A DNA stretch of 64,000 nucleotides. It comes from Burkholderiaceae bacterium (GTDB lineage: Bacteria; Pseudomonadota; Gammaproteobacteria; Burkholderiales; Burkholderiaceae_A). Below, in pieces: positions 55,262 to 64,000 of the stretch; within the stretch, counting starts at the first letter, position 1; each line of letters opens with the position of its first letter. The DNA lies in assembly GCA_018402635.1 (NCBI GenBank), contig JAGYIP010000008.1, positions 248,001 to 312,000 of the forward strand. The letters are read 5' to 3'. Both the position numbers and the translations under genes were made by a program. Below the pieces are notes generated by a model that had not been told where the DNA came from, did no database searches, and was given only the letters and a program-made list of their open reading frames with translations.

Positions 55262-57059
55262 ATGCGAAGTCATTACTGCGGAGAGCTTTCCGCAAGTCAG
55301 CTTGATCAGACCGTGACACTCTGTGGCTGGGTGCATCGTCGTCGAGACCATGGGGGCGTCATTTTCATCGACCTTCGAGATCGCGACGGCCTTGCACAAA
55401 TTGTCTGTGACCCCGACCGCGAGGCGATGTTCAAACTGGCAGAGACCCTGCGCAATGAGTTCTGCCTGCGTGTGACGGGCCGGGTTCGTCAACGTCCCGA
55501 GGGTACCGTGAATGCCAATATGGCAAGCGGCGAGATTGAGATTCTCTGCCTTGAGCTTGAGCTTCTTAACCCCTCGGTGACACCTCCGTTTCAGCTCGAT
55601 GACGAGCATCTTTCGGAGACGACACGGCTTACCCATCGCGTGCTCGATCTACGCCGCCCGTTCATGCAGCGCAATCTTATGCTGCGTTACAAGGTTGCCA
55701 TGGCCGTGCGCCGCTACCTTGATACGCATGGCTTTATTGATATTGAGACCCCTATGCTTACGCGCTCCACACCCGAGGGTGCGCGTGACTACCTGGTGCC
55801 ATCTCGGGTGCATCCCGGCAGTTTTTTTGCCCTGCCCCAATCGCCCCAGCTCTTTAAGCAGCTGCTCATGGTGGCGGGCTTTGACCGCTACTACCAAATC
55901 ACCAAGTGCTTTCGTGACGAAGACCTGCGCGCGGATCGTCAGCCCGAATTCACCCAGATTGACTGCGAGACCTCGTTTCTCGGCGAGCAAGATATTCGTG
56001 ACCTTTTTGAGACCATGATCCGCGAGGTCTTCCACGAGATCATGGCCGTGGACCTTCCTAACCCCTTTCCTGTTATGGCCTACGGCCAGGCAATGGCTCG
56101 ATTCGGTTCGGACAAGCCCGATCTGCGTGTGAATCTGGAGCTCACCGAGTTGACCGACCTCATGGCCGATGTCGACTTCAAGGTCTTCTCTGAGCCCGCA
56201 CGACTGGCCAATGGCCGGGTTGCAGCCCTCTGTATTGCGGGCGGTGCGCAGTTAAGCCGCGGCGAGATCGACAGCTACACCGAGTTTGTAAAAATCTACG
56301 GGGCAAAGGGGCTTGCCTGGATCAAGGTGAACGAGAAGGCCAAGGGCCGTGATGGTCTGCAGTCACCCATTGTTAAGAACCTTCATGAGGCCTGTCTTGA
56401 AGCTGTACTTGCCCGCACCGGTGCCAATGACGGAGACCTTATTTTCTTTGGTGCCGACAAGGCTAAGGTGGTCAATGACGCCTTGGGCGCGTTAAGGGTT
56501 CGCATCGGTCAGTCGGAGTTTGGACGGGCCAATGGGCTCTTTACGGCCGGCTGGCGCCCCCTGTGGGTGGTTGACTTTCCAATGTTTGAATACGATGAAG
56601 AAAACCGCCGGTTTACGGCTGTTCATCATCCCTTTACGGCGCCCAAGCCTGGGCATGAAGACCGGATGGAAGCAGGACCCTGGCAGCTGCCTGGCTCAGG
56701 CCTACGACATGGTTCTCAATGGCTGGGAGATTGGGGGCGGGTCGGTACGTATTCACCAAGAGGCCGTGCAGAGCAAGGTCTTTCGGGCGCTTAACATTGG
56801 TGCCGAAGAGGCCCAAGAAAAATTTGGCTTCTTGCTCGATGCGCTGCGATATGGGGCGCCACCCCATGGCGGCCTTGCCTTTGGCCTTGACCGCCTGGTA
56901 ACCCTTATGACCGGGGCAGACTCCATTCGCGATGTCATTGCCTTTCCGAAGACCCAGCGGGCCCAGTGCCTGCTCACCCAGGCCCCGTCGCCAGCAGACG
57001 ATCGGCAGCTTAAAGAACTCTCCCTGCGTCTACGTGAGGCGCCCAAGATCGCCACATGA
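55262..57059 (+). CDS. aspS: Aspartyl-tRNA synthetase (frameshifted)
   Basis: A class IIb synthetase, about 599 residues when repaired, charging tRNA-Asp. It has an N-terminal OB anticodon domain ([21 protein letters not shown]), class II motif 2 in [18 protein letters not shown], a GAD insert, and motif 3 [13 protein letters not shown] at the end. In the sequence given, the first frame runs 55262-56794 and the rest lies in the frame ending at 57059. Removing one G of the pair at 56675-56676 restores [20 protein letters not shown]. It overlaps the next gene by four bases (ATGA). Confidence 0.95.
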
Positions 57060-57748: not shown

Positions 57749-58200
57749 ATGACCGTTTTTAAAATTCCCGTCTCTGTTCTGGTCATTCTGTACTCCTCGG
57801 ATGCCGATGTTTTGTTGCTGGAACGTGCGGACCACCCGGGCTTCTGGCAGTCGGTTACGGGCAGCCTTGATGATGAAAACGAGCCGCTGGTGGATGCGGC
57901 CTGTCGAGAGGTTTTTGAAGAGACCGGTCTTGCCATTGCATCGGCCGACATGCAAGACTGGGGCTTCTCGCAGAACTATGAAATCTTTGCCCATTGGCGG
58001 CATCGTTACGCCCCTGGGGTGACAGAAAATACCGAGCATGTTTTCTCAAGCCGAATCCCCGTGAAAGCGCAGTGCGCCTTTCCGCCCGCGAGCATCTGCG
58101 TTGGAAATGGCTGGGCCTTGAGGATGCGGCAGAGGCTTGTTTTTCTTGGACCAACGCCAAGGCCATTCGCGAGCTCGGTCGGCGTCAGTTCTCTAGCTAA
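57749..58200 (+). CDS. nudB: Dihydroneopterin triphosphate diphosphatase NudB (frameshifted)
   Basis: A Nudix hydrolase of about 150 residues in the folate pathway. The Nudix box is GSLDDENEPLVDAACREVFEETGL. After HVFSSRIP the frame leaves the family; adding one C to the C4 run at 58057-58060 restores RESAVRLSAREHLRWKWLGL and the stop at 58198-58200. Without the repair the frame runs into the following exonuclease gene and gives a false 510-residue fusion. In Burkholderiales nudB usually follows aspS closely. Confidence 0.9.
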
Positions 58201-58255
58201 GGGCTGCGGAGGTATTGAGGCCTCTGCAGCATGGCCGACATCTGGGCCTGCTGGT

Positions 58256-59281
58256 ATGAACCGGCCTGCGCCGCTTGTTGTGCGCCGACCCGAGGGGCTT
58301 TATTGCCCTCAAGGGGACTTTTTTATTGACCCCTGGCGGCCGGTTGATCGTGCAGTAATTACCCATGGCCATGCAGACCATGCCAGGCCAGGCCATGGCC
58401 ATGCGCTGTGTTCGATGCGGGGCCTTCCCGTTCTTCGGGCGCGGCTGGGCGAGGCTCAGTCGTTTCAGGGCCTGGGCTTTGGGCAGCGCCTGCGCCTGCA
58501 GGATGTCTGGGTTTCTCTGCACCCTGCCAGCCATGTCCTGGGTGCCAGTCAGGTTCTTATTGAGTCCGCCTCGGCAGATGGCCATGGCAGCGAGCGGTGG
58601 CTGGTCTCAGGCGACTATCGAGTTCAGAACGACCCAAGCTGCGATGCCTTTGAGCCTGTTAAGGCCGATGTCTTTATTTCAGAGACCACCTTTGGCCTGC
58701 CTATTTATCGTTGGCCGAATGTGGCCGATGAGGTTGCGTTACTTCTGGACTGGTGGCAGACCTGCCGCGATGAGGGCCGAGCAGCGGTTCTCTACACCTA
58801 TGCCCTTGGTAAGGCGCAGCGCCTTTTAATTGCGCTTCTTAGACTGGCCCCCTTGCCCGGAACGCTTTTCGTTCACCCCTCGGTGGCCCGCATGAACGAG
58901 GCCTATCGCGAGGCGGGAATTGCCTTGCCGGAACTGCCCACCCCCCCTGCCATGCTTAGCCCAGGGGCAATGGTGCTGGCGCCGATGGCGGTGCAGGGTT
59001 CGGGCTGGATGCAGCGTCAAAAGCCGGCGCTAGCCGAGGCGATGGTCTCGGGCTGGATGCTTGTTCGTGGCCATCGACGCAGGCATGCCGGGGTTCGGGG
59101 TTTTGTTATTTCCGACCATGCGGACTGGCCTGGACTTCTCTGGGCAATTGATCAGACCCAGGCCTCACGTGTTGTGCTGACCCATGGTCAGACGAGCAGC
59201 ATGGCGCGTTACTTAAAAGACCAGGGCCGCGATGTTGACACCCTTGAGACAGAATTCGATGCCCAGGCCGCCGATGTCTAA
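58256..59281 (+). CDS. Ligase-associated DNA exonuclease (metallo-beta-lactamase fold)
   Basis: A 341-residue protein of the MBL/beta-CASP exonuclease group found beside bacterial ATP-dependent ligases. The metal motif HGHADHARPGH (HxHxDH) is near residue 38; HPASHVLGASQ, SGDYRVQND and FISETTFG are further active-site strands; ISDHADW and LTHGQ close the C-terminal part. The start is taken as ATG at 58256, where homology begins; the frame is open upstream only because of the nudB shift. It is the first gene of a repair operon: its stop overlaps the ligase start. Confidence 0.9.
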   Translation: MNRPAPLVVRRPEGLYCPQGDFFIDPWRPVDRAVITHGHADHARPGHGHALCSMRGLPVLRARLGEAQSFQGLGFGQRLRLQDVWVSLHPASHVLGASQVLIESASADGHGSERWLVSGDYRVQNDPSCDAFEPVKADVFISETTFGLPIYRWPNVADEVALLLDWWQTCRDEGRAAVLYTYALGKAQRLLIALLRLAPLPGTLFVHPSVARMNEAYREAGIALPELPTPPAMLSPGAMVLAPMAVQGSGWMQRQKPALAEAMVSGWMLVRGHRRRHAGVRGFVISDHADWPGLLWAIDQTQASRVVLTHGQTSSMARYLKDQGRDVDTLETEFDAQAADV

Positions 59282-61046
59282 GTCCTCGCCACCGGGCAGC
59301 CTCGCCCATTTCGCGCAGCTCTTTCTTCGGCTTGATCAGTCGCAGGGCGTGCGCGAGAGGCAGCAGGCGCTGCTTGGCTTTTTAAATCAAGACGGGCTCG
59401 CCGATAAGGATGCGGCCTGGGCCTTGTGGCTTTTGGCCGGCGAGCGGCTTAAGCGCACTGTTGCCCCAGCTCTTTTTCGCAAGGCCATGGAAGAGGCCAC
59501 GGGTCTGCAGCCTTGGCTGGTTGAGGAGTGTTATCAGTCGGTGGGCGACCTGGCTGAGACCTCGGCCTTGCTTGCTGCCTGCCCACAAACCGAGTCAGAC
59601 TTCGCAGCCAAAGGCCTTGCCGATCTCATTGAGTGCGACTTGCTTGCCCTACGCGGTCTTCAGGCGCAGGAGGTCTGCAACTGGATGATGGCGGCCTGGG
59701 CGCAGTTAACGGCGCCTCAGGTTTTCTGCCTGAACAAAATACTTACTGGTGGATTGCGCCTGGGTCTTTCACGACAGGGCCTTGTTCAGGCGCTTGCCGA
59801 CCATTTAAAGATTGCAAAGGCGCTTGTTGCCCAGCGCATGCTTATTTTTCTTTCGCAACCGCCCGACGCAAAGGCCTATCAAGCGCTTGTCTCCCCCGAC
59901 GATTCCTGCGGTGCTCAGGCCTTTATGAATGGGCCTGCCCCCTTTTTCTTGGCGCAGAGTCTTTCGATGCAGGGTGAACCCCTTGAGCAGGCCGCGCAAT
60001 GCGAGCAGAGGCTCGGACCGATTGAGAACTGGGCCGCGGAATGGAAGTGGGATGGCATTCGGGCGCAGCTGGTTGTGGATGCAGCCGGTCAACTGCAGGT
60101 CTGGTCGCGCGGCGAGGAGCTTGTGACCGAGCAGTTTCCTGAGTTTGGGCAGATGTTCGCAGGGCCCCAAGCCTTGCCGGCCTTGCCGCTTCGGCTTGAT
60201 GGCGAGATTCTGGCCTGGGATGGTCTAAAGCAACGGCCCTTTGCCTTTGCCGATCTGCAAAGGCGACTCGGTCGTCGTAAACCTTCAAAGGCCATCCAGA
60301 ACGCACACCCCGTGGTCTTCATGGCCTACGACCTTCTTGGCCAGGCAGGCCGTGATTGGCGAGCCGAACCCTTTTCGGCGCGTCGAGCAGCCCTGGTTGC
60401 GCTCCTGGAGTCGTTGGGCGAGGGCGACAGCGACAGCTACAGCGACCGCGACGCAAGGCCTGAGAGCCCAGCTGCCTTTCGGCCCATGCGTGCCTCGCCC
60501 ATCGTTGCTGCAGAGAACTGGGCCGAGCTTGCCCTGTTGCAAGCCCAGGCCCGAGACCAGCCTGCGGAAGGCTTAATGCTTAAGCGGTGGGATGCGGCCT
60601 ACGGCCAGGGCCGCACAAAAGAAAGTTTGCAGGGCGAGCTTTGGAAGTGGAAGCTTGCGCCATTAACGATTGATGCCGTGCTTGTCTACGCCCAGCGAGG
60701 CCACGGTCGCCGGGCTGGGCTCTACACCGACTATGGCTTTGCGCTCTGGGATGACCGCCAAGACCCTGCGGTCTTGGTACCCTTTGCAAAGGCCTACTCT
60801 GGTCTTACCGATGCTGAAATAAAAAAGGTGGATCAGGTGATACGTAAAACCATTGAAGACAAGTTTGGCCCCGTTCGACAGGTGAGGCCAAGCCTTGTAA
60901 TGGAACTTGGCTTTGAGGCGGTTATGGCGTCGAGCCGTCACAAGAGCGGCATTGCCGTTCGCTTTCCACGCATTCTTCGGCTGCGGCCCGACAAAACAAT
61001 CGAGCAGGCCGATCGGCTCTCAAGTCTTCGGGCCATGCTGTCATGA
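59274..61046 (+). CDS. ATP-dependent DNA ligase (LigB/LigC-like bacterial type)
   Basis: A 590-residue ligase. An N-terminal alpha-helical DNA-binding domain (about 1-215) is followed by the adenylation domain with motif I EWKWDGIRAQ (nucleotidyl Lys), motif III LDGEILAWD, VFMAYDLL, motif IV EGLMLKR, and motif V ELWKWK. An OB-fold domain ends the protein. A Ser/Asp repeat insert lies near residue 385. ATG at 59274 lies inside the exonuclease stop region; a start at 59232 is also in frame. Its end overlaps the DUF429 gene by four bases (ATGA). Confidence 0.93.
   Translation: MSKSSPPGSLAHFAQLFLRLDQSQGVRERQQALLGFLNQDGLADKDAAWALWLLAGERLKRTVAPALFRKAMEEATGLQPWLVEECYQSVGDLAETSALLAACPQTESDFAAKGLADLIECDLLALRGLQAQEVCNWMMAAWAQLTAPQVFCLNKILTGGLRLGLSRQGLVQALADHLKIAKALVAQRMLIFLSQPPDAKAYQALVSPDDSCGAQAFMNGPAPFFLAQSLSMQGEPLEQAAQCEQRLGPIENWAAEWKWDGIRAQLVVDAAGQLQVWSRGEELVTEQFPEFGQMFAGPQALPALPLRLDGEILAWDGLKQRPFAFADLQRRLGRRKPSKAIQNAHPVVFMAYDLLGQAGRDWRAEPFSARRAALVALLESLGEGDSDSYSDRDARPESPAAFRPMRASPIVAAENWAELALLQAQARDQPAEGLMLKRWDAAYGQGRTKESLQGELWKWKLAPLTIDAVLVYAQRGHGRRAGLYTDYGFALWDDRQDPAVLVPFAKAYSGLTDAEIKKVDQVIRKTIEDKFGPVRQVRPSLVMELGFEAVMASSRHKSGIAVRFPRILRLRPDKTIEQADRLSSLRAMLS
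60424..60453 (+). repeat. 6-bp CGACAG-type tandem repeat inside the ligase gene
   Basis: Five imperfect copies of CGACAG encode a Asp/Ser-rich loop (GDSDSYSDRD). Probably a variable surface insert in the adenylation domain. Confidence 0.6.
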
Positions 61047-61987
61047 GTCTTGGGCATCGACATCGCAGCTATCCTGAAGGCTTTCGTATCTATGGGCTTG
61101 ACTTCAGTTCAGCCCCCTCTTTGCGAAAGCCCATTACCTGTGCAGTGGGCCGTCTGGCACGCGAGCGCCAACCGGGCACGTCCGCTGAGACCATCACCTT
61201 CTACCTTGAAGAGGTGACTGCGCTTACCAGCCTCCTCGGTTTTGAGCAGTTTCTTCAGACTCCTGGGCCATGGCTTGCAGGCTTTGACCTTCCTTTCAGT
61301 CAGCCACGCCCCCTGATTGAGCATGAGGGCTGGCCAAGCCACTGGCCTGACTTTGTTGATTTCTTTTGTGAACAAGACCGTGAGGCCTTAAGGCTTCGCT
61401 TTAAGGCCTGGTGTGATGCACGGCCCGTGGGCAGTAAATTCGCCTGGCGAAAGACCGACAAGCCTGCCGGCTCAAGCCCTGCCATGCGCTGGACCAACCC
61501 GCCTGTGGCCTGGATGATGCATGCGGGGATGTCGCGCATGAAGGCGGCTGGCCTTGTCTTTCCAGCCCATGAGGCGCATGAGGCCCTTGACGAAGGCAGG
61601 CCCTACCTGCGCTGGACAAAGACCCAGAGGGCCGAGCATCGGCTGGCCCTTGAGGCCTACCCGGGCTTTACAGCACGCAAGGTCTCTGGCCAGTCTTACA
61701 AAAGTGATCTGCCTGCGAAACAAGACACCGATCGCGCGGTGCGTCGGCAGCAGATTCTTCGGGCCCTTGAGGGCGAGCAGGCTGGCCTTAACCTTCGGCT
61801 TCGGCTCACCCCGGGCTGGTCTCGACGCATTGTCATGGATGGCTCGGGTGATTTATTGGATGCCGTCATTTGTGCCATGCAGGCTGGCCATGCTGCTGCC
61901 TTGCCAGGCTTTGGACTGCCGCCCGAGGGCAATGCCTTTTTCGACCGGCTGGAGGGCTGGATTGCCGCAGTGCCCGTGCCTTCCTAG
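61043..61987 (+). CDS. DUF429 (predicted RNase H-like nuclease) protein
   Basis: A 314-residue DUF429 protein. Family hallmarks are the N-terminal strand GLDFSSAPSLRKPI, the second acidic strand GFDLPFSQP, an EAYPG motif near residue 214, and the C-terminal helix DGSGDLLDAVICAMQA. The spacing of acidic residues suggests an RNase H-type active site, but activity is inferred. It is coupled to the ligase by ATGA and followed 10 bases later by the helicase. This places it inside a repair operon. Confidence 0.8.
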   Translation: MSLGHRHRSYPEGFRIYGLDFSSAPSLRKPITCAVGRLARERQPGTSAETITFYLEEVTALTSLLGFEQFLQTPGPWLAGFDLPFSQPRPLIEHEGWPSHWPDFVDFFCEQDREALRLRFKAWCDARPVGSKFAWRKTDKPAGSSPAMRWTNPPVAWMMHAGMSRMKAAGLVFPAHEAHEALDEGRPYLRWTKTQRAEHRLALEAYPGFTARKVSGQSYKSDLPAKQDTDRAVRRQQILRALEGEQAGLNLRLRLTPGWSRRIVMDGSGDLLDAVICAMQAGHAAALPGFGLPPEGNAFFDRLEGWIAAVPVPS

Positions 61988-61997
61988 TCTTTAAGTC

Positions 61998-64000
61998 ATG
62001 GTGCTCACCCGCGTGCAACGCAAGCCCAGGCCTTTGGCCGCTTGCAGCATTACCAGCTTCGCGCAGGCGCGGTTCAGCCAGCTTGGCCTTTGCCCCTTAG
62101 CCTTTCAGAAAGAGGTCTGGCAGGCCATGGAGGAAAAGGCCTGCGGGCTGATTCATGCGCCAACCGGCTTTGGTAAGACCTATGCGGTCTGGGCAGGTGT
62201 CTTGGGCCAACTTCATAGGGCAGGGGGCAGTAGCAGTGATAGTGGCAGTGGTAGCACTGCAAATGCAGGCCTACAGGTTTTATGGATAACGCCCATGCGG
62301 GCCCTTGCCGCAGACACCTTTCAGGCGCTAGGCCGGTTTGCTCCCGAGGGGTTTTCATTAGGGCTGCGAACGGGTGATACCTCGAGCCATGAACGCGCGA
62401 AACAAGACCGTCGACCGCCCCAGGGCCTTGTGACCACGCCCGAGAGCCTAAGCCTGATGCTCTCTAAGCCCCAGAGCCTCGCGGTGTTGAGCGCCCTTCG
62501 GTTTGTTGTTGTTGACGAATGGCACGAGCTTATTGGCAACAAGCGTGGCAGCCTTTTAGAGCTAAGCCTGGCAGCGCTTGCATCGATTACGGGCAAGACG
62601 CTTCAGGTCTGGGGCCTCTCGGCAACCCTTGGAAATCTTGATGAGGCGGCCAGTGTTCTTTGCCACAGCCTTGGCAGTCCAGTAAAAATTTCGGCCTCTG
62701 GCAGACAACCGCCTCGAATGAAAACCTTACTGCCTAAGGACCCCATTCGCTTTGCCTGGTCGGGTCATCTTGGCCTCACCATGCTCGAGCCTGTTCTTCA
62801 TCAGCTCGAGAAGGCGGCCTCAAGCCTGTTGTTTACCAACACCCGTTCGCAGGCCGAGCTCTGGTATCAGGCCATTCTTCAGGCGCGGCCCGACTGGGCG
62901 GGGCAGATGGCCCTGCATCATGGGTCTTTGGATTCAGACACGCGCGCATGGGTGGAAAAGGCCACGGCAGCCGGCGAGCTTCGTGTGGTCGTGGCAACCT
63001 CAAGCCTTGATCTTGGTGTTGACTTCACGCCCGTCGAGCAGGTCTTTCAGGTTGGCAGCCCCAAGGGGGTTGCGCGACTTCTTCAGCGTGCAGGCCGTTC
63101 GGGCCATCAGCCCAAGGGCGTCTCAAGCCTTTACATGGTGCCCACGCATGGCTTTGAAATTCTGGAGTCTTTGGCTGCGCAGCAGGCAATTGATGAGGGA
63201 TTCATTGAGCCGCGCAGGCCTTTGAGGCTGCCCCTTGACGTTCTTGCACAGCACCTTGTCACACGCATTCTGGGCGAGCCAATGACCGAGCAGGCTTTAT
63301 TTACAGAGGTTCGTGAAAGCCATGCATTTAAAGACTTAAGCCTTAAAGATTTTCATTGGACCCTTGAGTTCCTCTCACAAGGCGGCGCATCCTTGAAGGC
63401 CTACCCTGACTTTCATCGCATTCAATGTAATGCGCAGGGTCAATGGCAGATGCAGGATCTGCGACTTGCTCGGCGCCATCGCCAGTCGATCGGCACGATT
63501 GTTTCAGATGCGACTGTGCGGCTTGCATGGCTTTCAGGCGGGGGCCTGGGCCAAGTGGAGGAGTCGTTCATTGGCAGGCTTAAGCCCGGTGACAGCTTTT
63601 TGTTTTCCGGTCGCAGCCTGGAGTTGGTGCGGGTGCGTGATCTCACCGCCTACGTGCGCAAGGCCACCGGAAAGGCAAAGGCGGTTGCTCGCTGGACCGG
63701 TGGAAGCCTTCCTCTGTCGGGCGAGCTTGCCTGCTGCCTTCGCAGTCTTCTTCACGCCTTTGCATTGAACGACTTGGCAAGCCCTTGGCTGCAAACGCCT
63801 GAGGCCATAAGCATGCAGCCCTTGCTGCAGATTCAGGCTGAGCGCTCGGCCATTCCCACCAACAGTCTGTGCCTTGTGGAGCATTTCACTTCAAACGACG
63901 GTGAGCACTGTTTTATTTATCCCTTTGCAGGGCGACAGGTGCATCTTGGGCTTGCCTCGCTGCTAGCCTTTCGACTAACACGCGTTCACGCCACAAGCAT
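61998..64000 (+). CDS. Lhr-Core type DEAD/DEAH helicase (ligase-associated), 5' part
   Basis: The frame is open from ATG 61998 to the window end, at least 667 residues (family about 800-850). Motif I is APTGFGKT, Ia TPMRALAAD, Ib TTPESLSL, II DEWHELIGNKRG, III LSATLG, IV FTNTRSQAE, V TSSLDLGVDF and VI QRAGRSGH. The DEWHEL form marks the Lhr-Core family, a 3'-5' helicase with winged-helix and cradle domains. A Ser/Gly repeat lies between motifs I and Ia. PdeM, the usual other partner, may lie beyond the end. Confidence 0.93.
   Translation, partial: MVLTRVQRKPRPLAACSITSFAQARFSQLGLCPLAFQKEVWQAMEEKACGLIHAPTGFGKTYAVWAGVLGQLHRAGGSSSDSGSGSTANAGLQVLWITPMRALAADTFQALGRFAPEGFSLGLRTGDTSSHERAKQDRRPPQGLVTTPESLSLMLSKPQSLAVLSALRFVVVDEWHELIGNKRGSLLELSLAALASITGKTLQVWGLSATLGNLDEAASVLCHSLGSPVKISASGRQPPRMKTLLPKDPIRFAWSGHLGLTMLEPVLHQLEKAASSLLFTNTRSQAELWYQAILQARPDWAGQMALHHGSLDSDTRAWVEKATAAGELRVVVATSSLDLGVDFTPVEQVFQVGSPKGVARLLQRAGRSGHQPKGVSSLYMVPTHGFEILESLAAQQAIDEGFIEPRRPLRLPLDVLAQHLVTRILGEPMTEQALFTEVRESHAFKDLSLKDFHWTLEFLSQGGASLKAYPDFHRIQCNAQGQWQMQDLRLARRHRQSIGTIVSDATVRLAWLSGGGLGQVEESFIGRLKPGDSFLFSGRSLELVRVRDLTAYVRKATGKAKAVARWTGGSLPLSGELACCLRSLLHAFALNDLASPWLQTPEAISMQPLLQIQAERSAIPTNSLCLVEHFTSNDGEHCFIYPFAGRQVHLGLASLLAFRLTRVHATS
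62226..62257 (+). repeat. AGT/GGC-rich short repeat in the helicase gene
   Basis: An imperfect repeat of AGTGGC/AGTAGC units encoding GSSSDSGSGST, inserted between helicase motifs I and Ia. Probably a flexible loop of variable length. Confidence 0.6.

Follow-up and report, generated by a model that had tools for sequence, protein, structure and literature searches.

Gene content of the array

At the end of the window (the whole 64,000-nt stretch of DNA analysed here) lies a tightly packed array of four genes, which continues beyond the border with a fifth (Table 1).

Table 1. Genes of the array in window coordinates; L002 is the window's own locus, read past the border.
Gene product	Position	Strand	Matches and motifs
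Ligase-associated exonuclease (metallo-beta-lactamase type)	58256..59281	+	TIGR04122, 385 bits (cut-off 325); THGHADH
Cassette ATP-dependent DNA ligase	59274..61046 (alternative start 59232)	+	TIGR04120, 508 bits (cut-off 400); EWKWDGIRAQ
DUF429 protein, predicted RNase H/RuvC-like nuclease	61043..61987	+	PF04250, 19 bits (cut-off 23); conserved D20, D82, E204, D270, D273
Lhr-Core DEXH helicase, truncated at the window border	61998..64000, stop at 64544 (window scale); whole protein L002:4999-7545	+	TIGR04121, 956 bits for the whole protein (cut-off 850); DEWHEL
PdeM, lying entirely past the window end	L002:7553-8317 (window scale 64552-65316)		TIGR04123, 145 bits, just below cut-off 150

Direct reading confirmed the spacing and motifs given for the first four genes in a preliminary description of the sequence: the exonuclease and ligase overlap by 8 bases counted from ATG 59274 (50 if the upstream ATG 59232 is used), the ligase and the DUF429 gene overlap by 4 bases, and a gap of 10 bases precedes the Lhr-Core gene. 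The adjacent exonuclease, ligase and helicase each score above their NCBIfam cut-offs, the helicase being read past the window, and pdeM, which the description had suggested seeking past position 64000, is present 7 bases after the helicase. With three cassette families over cut-off and pdeM next to them, we read the array as the ligase-associated DNA damage response cassette plus one extra gene, in agreement with the known repair cassette proposed earlier. All four families of the LigB-type ligase/Lhr helicase/phosphodiesterase (MPE, PdeM)/metallo-beta-lactamase exonuclease operon (TIGR04120-TIGR04123), PdeM with a score slightly under its cut-off, are thus found in one operon-like array, which differs from that operon in having the DUF429 gene between ligase and helicase.

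Upstream of the array, aspS (55262-57059) runs in two overlapping frames, with Pfam tRNA-synt_2 matched over positions 2-215 and then 212-308 in the next ORF, which reflects either a break in the gene or an assembly fault at this place. The nudB model (57749-58255) is matched to position 115 of 151 before the frame is lost into the exonuclease ORF, making two disruptions inside ~2 kb. The mechanical exonuclease ORF start at 57749 is explained as an in-frame run-on from the disrupted nudB. At the other end of the array, the pdeM stop codon and the bases just after it carry ~7-base tandem repeats (GAGTGAC/GAGTAGC; L002 8311-8350, window scale 65310-65349).

A divergent DUF429 protein with a predicted RNase H-like fold

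Judged by its own sequence, the window protein bears the DUF429 name weakly, since it falls under the Pfam gathering cut-off for PF04250 and has no NCBIfam match. Its homologues are more telling: PF04250 was matched at E ≤ 0.01 by 40 of 50 aligned proteins (alignment A1, comprising 50 of the 58 proteins of the order survey described below). In every row, of 129, that covers the column concerned, D20, D82, E204 and D273 are invariant, while D270 is either D or E. These residues correspond to D3, D45, E137, D190 and D193 of DUF429 proper in an alignment of 18 of the 30 fetched DUF429 loci (A3). A profile comparison by hhalign with DUF429 proper gave E 0.0019 at a probability of 14% and paired four of the five acids; D20 lay outside the alignment and was matched by eye on G-x-D. 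Along with the acidic positions, the window protein shares with DUF429 (PF04250; COG2410, COG4328, COG4923) the motifs D-x-P near D82, E-x-[HY]-P at E204 and D-x-x-D-A at D270/D273. By these sequence comparisons we class it as a divergent DUF429 subfamily. Where four acidic residues had been proposed, five conserved ones are seen.

An AlphaFold2 model of the product (pLDDT 92.1, pTM 0.92) shows RNase H/RuvC topology. Three antiparallel strands (residues 15-20, 31-42 and 49-61) are predicted to be followed by a helix (64-71), a fourth strand (77-81), a further strand (200-204) and a final helix (270-286), as in an RNase H-like layout. The conserved acids would lie on strand 1, after strand 4 and on the final helix, where such a layout expects them, so that structure prediction upholds the RNase H-like acidic arrangement first suspected. 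Together, modelled fold and acids suggest a two-metal nuclease. A fold assignment for DUF429 is already published, PMC3985635 placing it in a clade with RuvC, RuvX and terminases.

Foldseek against the PDB returned nothing at E ≤ 0.001, its best rows, at non-significant E, being levoglucosan kinase, and a sequence search for solved relatives gave a single irrelevant match (E 0.58). In a structural second look, the top 12 rows were all chains of RuvC, fowlpox resolvase, MOC1 and Ydc2; with Holliday-junction resolvases at the head, branched DNA becomes a serious alternative substrate. At the sequence level, comparison of the window protein with a profile of 9 RuvC rows by hhalign was not significant (E 0.08), and there was no RuvC match for it in Pfam or NCBIfam. 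RuvC is, moreover, separately encoded in 24 of the 26 genomes of the window's family, which rules out DUF429 as a RuvC replacement.

DUF429 beside the cassette across Burkholderiales

Among 300 genomes of the order, DUF429 was detected in 59 and the helicase in 48; both occurred together in 27, against 9.4 expected if kinship is ignored, and in 15 of these 27 no more than 10 kb separated them. We fetched the loci around 58 of the 59 DUF429 genes, the window's own included (G241, with fragmentary matches, was left out), and mapped the cassette genes by tblastn. A ligase is present in 19 of the 58 loci and is directly followed by DUF429 in 17, which belong to five families: f1 (L002, L070, L077), f3 (L080), f4 (L037), f10 (L061, L064, L069, L085) and f13 (L042, L045, L048, L050, L051, L052, L055, L068). 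DUF429 directly precedes the helicase in 12 loci from three families (L002, L070, L064, L085 and the eight f13 loci). The neighbourhood is therefore not peculiar to this genome, as the preliminary description had required, but recurs in other Burkholderiales genera. Overlaps of 4 bases were found between ligase and DUF429 in L002, L055, L070 and L085, and between DUF429 and helicase in L048, L050, L051 and L085. Gaps in this spacing survey are approximate, start codons having been chosen by script; L064 and L068 were counted by tblastn distances, as frame trouble made their gap figures artefacts.

The idea that DUF429 sits in place of another nuclease did not hold up. Apart from the window, pdeM was matched in 12 of the 18 further loci of the order survey with both ligase and DUF429, which rules out DUF429 as a PdeM replacement. 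As to the six loci lacking a pdeM match, L055 and L063 end inside the helicase or DUF429, L036 has a helicase, and L061, L069 and L077 are without an adjacent helicase.

In f1, f4 and f10 loci (L070, L077, L037, L064, L069, L085) the array adjoins aspS-nudB. In f13, by contrast, aspS lies on another contig than the DUF429 array in all eight genomes. This separation is telling mainly in G012, because DUF429 there is separated from the contig end by >260 kb; the order exonuclease-ligase-DUF429-helicase is kept in this genome away from aspS. A different setting is given by f38, where DUF429 stands just before an AddB-like gene, followed by an AddA/RecB-like gene, in four of five loci (L056, L060, L065, L066). 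The AddB-like gene exceeded the cut-off of TIGR03623 ('probable DNA repair protein') in both loci tested (L056, L066), and the AddA/RecB-like gene stayed below equivalog cut-offs in the one tested. Taken together, the array order away from aspS in f13 and the AddAB-like neighbours in f38 favour a functional link with repair. Co-evolution assessed by mirrored distances was not discriminating.

DUF429 without the cassette

Within the window's own family, DUF429 is not tied to the cassette, being present in 25 of 26 genomes, whereas the helicase is present in 5 of 26. Of the 25 family genomes searched for a ligase, 10 have one, and DUF429 follows it in nine of them. The exception, G626 (L214, L215), carries exonuclease, ligase, helicase and pdeM together on one contig, with its DUF429 gene at aspS-nudB on a second, a natural uncoupling of the whole cassette from DUF429. 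Five g3 genomes (L210-L213, L077) show a reduced module, aspS-nudB-exonuclease-ligase-DUF429, with no helicase match and no pdeM; two further g3 genomes have aspS-nudB-DUF429 only; and six fetched g1/g2 loci (L071-L076) contain DUF429 without cassette genes. These counts and loci mark DUF429 as the most stable gene of the locus, and in the family counts its partner is more often the ligase than the helicase.

Beyond the order, 24 sampled genomes contained DUF429 proper as well as the helicase: on the same contig in seven, on separate contigs in 17, and in no case within 10 kb. This count used 44 of the 109 helicase places and, checked by eye, covers every DUF429 genome with a helicase match. 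In the phylum sample of 349 genomes, the window's subfamily itself turned up in 10, of which nine belong to the order. Some assemblies appear in the survey under two labels (L090=G624, L091=G147, L096=G108, L103=G184, L104=G629, L111=G639).

For the history of the gene we used a quick-search DUF429 tree of 129 of 138 loci, short or stop-holding rows being left out. The label 'cassette gene in the locus' requires 10 changes on this tree, with at least five changes forced by well-supported branches, against a mean of 24.7 for shuffled labels; the label is thus clustered by lineage, yet repeatedly changed. Records labelled Planctomycetota (L092-L095, L097-L102, L105-L107, L109, L112) have DUF429 proteins closer to the window's than most Burkholderiales ones are, and 14 of these 15 rows group as a single clade within the f1 portion of the tree (SH-aLRT 97), a placement that points to transfer between phyla. 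Planctomycetota as the source of the cassette was rejected, as DUF429 stands alone in 15 of 15 loci.

Proposed function and alternatives

Our preferred interpretation, to which we give a probability of about 0.5, is that gene 61043-61987 encodes a metal-dependent nuclease on the RuvC side of the RNase H superfamily, which serves as an accessory fifth member of the cassette in part of Burkholderiales. The analysis shows the gene order, its recurrent coupling, the modelled fold and the conserved acids; we infer nuclease activity, the substrate and the following order of steps. Lhr-Core would open a blocked fork or R-loop and so expose a structure for the DUF429 enzyme, which would most probably cut the RNA strand in a hybrid or R-loop and, with lower probability, a strand of branched DNA; the end would then be trimmed by exonuclease and PdeM and sealed by the ligase. 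Since many genomes have DUF429 alone, the enzyme must also act without the cassette. The best reading is accordingly a facultative partnership, in which DUF429 is a self-sufficient, predicted nuclease.

A precedent is RelZ (MSMEG_5849, DUF429-RelA) of Mycobacterium smegmatis, whose RNase HII domain is a DUF429 domain. It reportedly cuts RNA-DNA hybrids as well as R-loops and is induced by UV (PMC4429107, PMC7591505), which lends outside support to the hybrid substrate suggested in the preliminary description. Unlike the free-standing window protein, RelZ is described there as a fusion with a (p)ppGpp synthetase that its activity requires. Mycobacterial Lhr-Core is reported to work best on 3'-tailed hybrids, while archaeal Lhr is reported to prefer forks (PMC7437997). 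RelZ activity and the mycobacterial preference favour hybrids, and the resolvase-like structural ranking and the archaeal preference favour branched DNA; as the predicted substrate among structures opened by Lhr-Core, we place hybrids slightly ahead. The fuller proposal of a five-enzyme Lhr-Core/ligase pathway in part of Burkholderiales, with the DUF429 nuclease cutting R-loops or RNA-containing forks, we consider unlikely as it stands.

It is possible, though rather doubtful, that only the neighbourhood is shared: DUF429 would then be an independent gene of an old aspS-nudB locus, flanked by cassette genes for historical reasons and with no joint function. The steady presence of DUF429 in the window's family, whatever the cassette content, agrees with this, as do its place at aspS-nudB without cassette genes there (L071-L076; G639, G640, G626) and its position close to aspS or nudB in other loci of the order that lack the cassette. 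Against it speak f13, where cassette and DUF429 keep short gaps and 4-base overlaps away from aspS, and the enrichment of DUF429 among helicase genomes of the order noted above, which ignores kinship. If the link did prove to be one of neighbourhood only, what remains is a divergent DUF429 subfamily nearly universal in one small-genome family.

The other alternatives concern the protein itself. A RuvC-like endonuclease cutting branched DNA in the forks, flaps and junctions handled by Lhr-Core, with no RNA role, would differ from the preferred interpretation in substrate only. It is suggested by the resolvase chains heading the structural ranking, the published clade and the archaeal fork preference, but no RuvC replacement is needed where RuvC itself is encoded, the RuvC profile comparison was not significant, and RelZ, the sole DUF429 protein with an activity reported in the text available to us, acts on hybrids; on balance we regard this substrate as on the unlikely side. 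Very unlikely, in our estimate, is a non-nuclease with an RNase H-like fold, for instance a protein that binds nucleotides or sugar phosphates, or a scaffold without activity. Such a role would fit the levoglucosan kinase rows, non-significant as these are, and the fusion of some DUF429 domains to nucleotide-metabolism domains described in PMC3153485, yet the invariance of the acids, their match to DUF429 proper and the RelZ precedent speak against it.

The cassette, the fold assignment and an enzymatic precedent were thus already known, whereas the five-gene arrangement and its recurrence were absent from the literature searched: our search, which did not extend to the cassette's founding papers, found no report of DUF429 between cassette ligase and helicase. 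The cassette's role and target lesion are stated as not known in PMC10140301. A predicted nuclease recurring between ligase and helicase, from a family with one reportedly R-loop-active member, is therefore a testable hint at the cassette's substrate; were the five-enzyme pathway true, the cassette would be a dedicated pathway for RNA-DNA-hybrid damage, pointing to the lesion that the whole cassette repairs. Conversely, DUF429 gains a repair context: five families of the order have it with this cassette, and a sixth has it with an AddAB-like pair.

Other settings of DUF429 were also seen. Membership in a defence system was rejected on a PADLOC search, which matched neither the window protein nor L066 and gave L049 weak PDC-S44 matches (E 0.003). 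In f23 (L049, L053, L057, L058) DUF429 follows a putative potassium transporter; in three of the four loci a TPR-like gene intervenes. Finally, nine Sinorhizobium plasmid records (H1-H9) encode DUF429 proteins 28-35% identical to that of the window.
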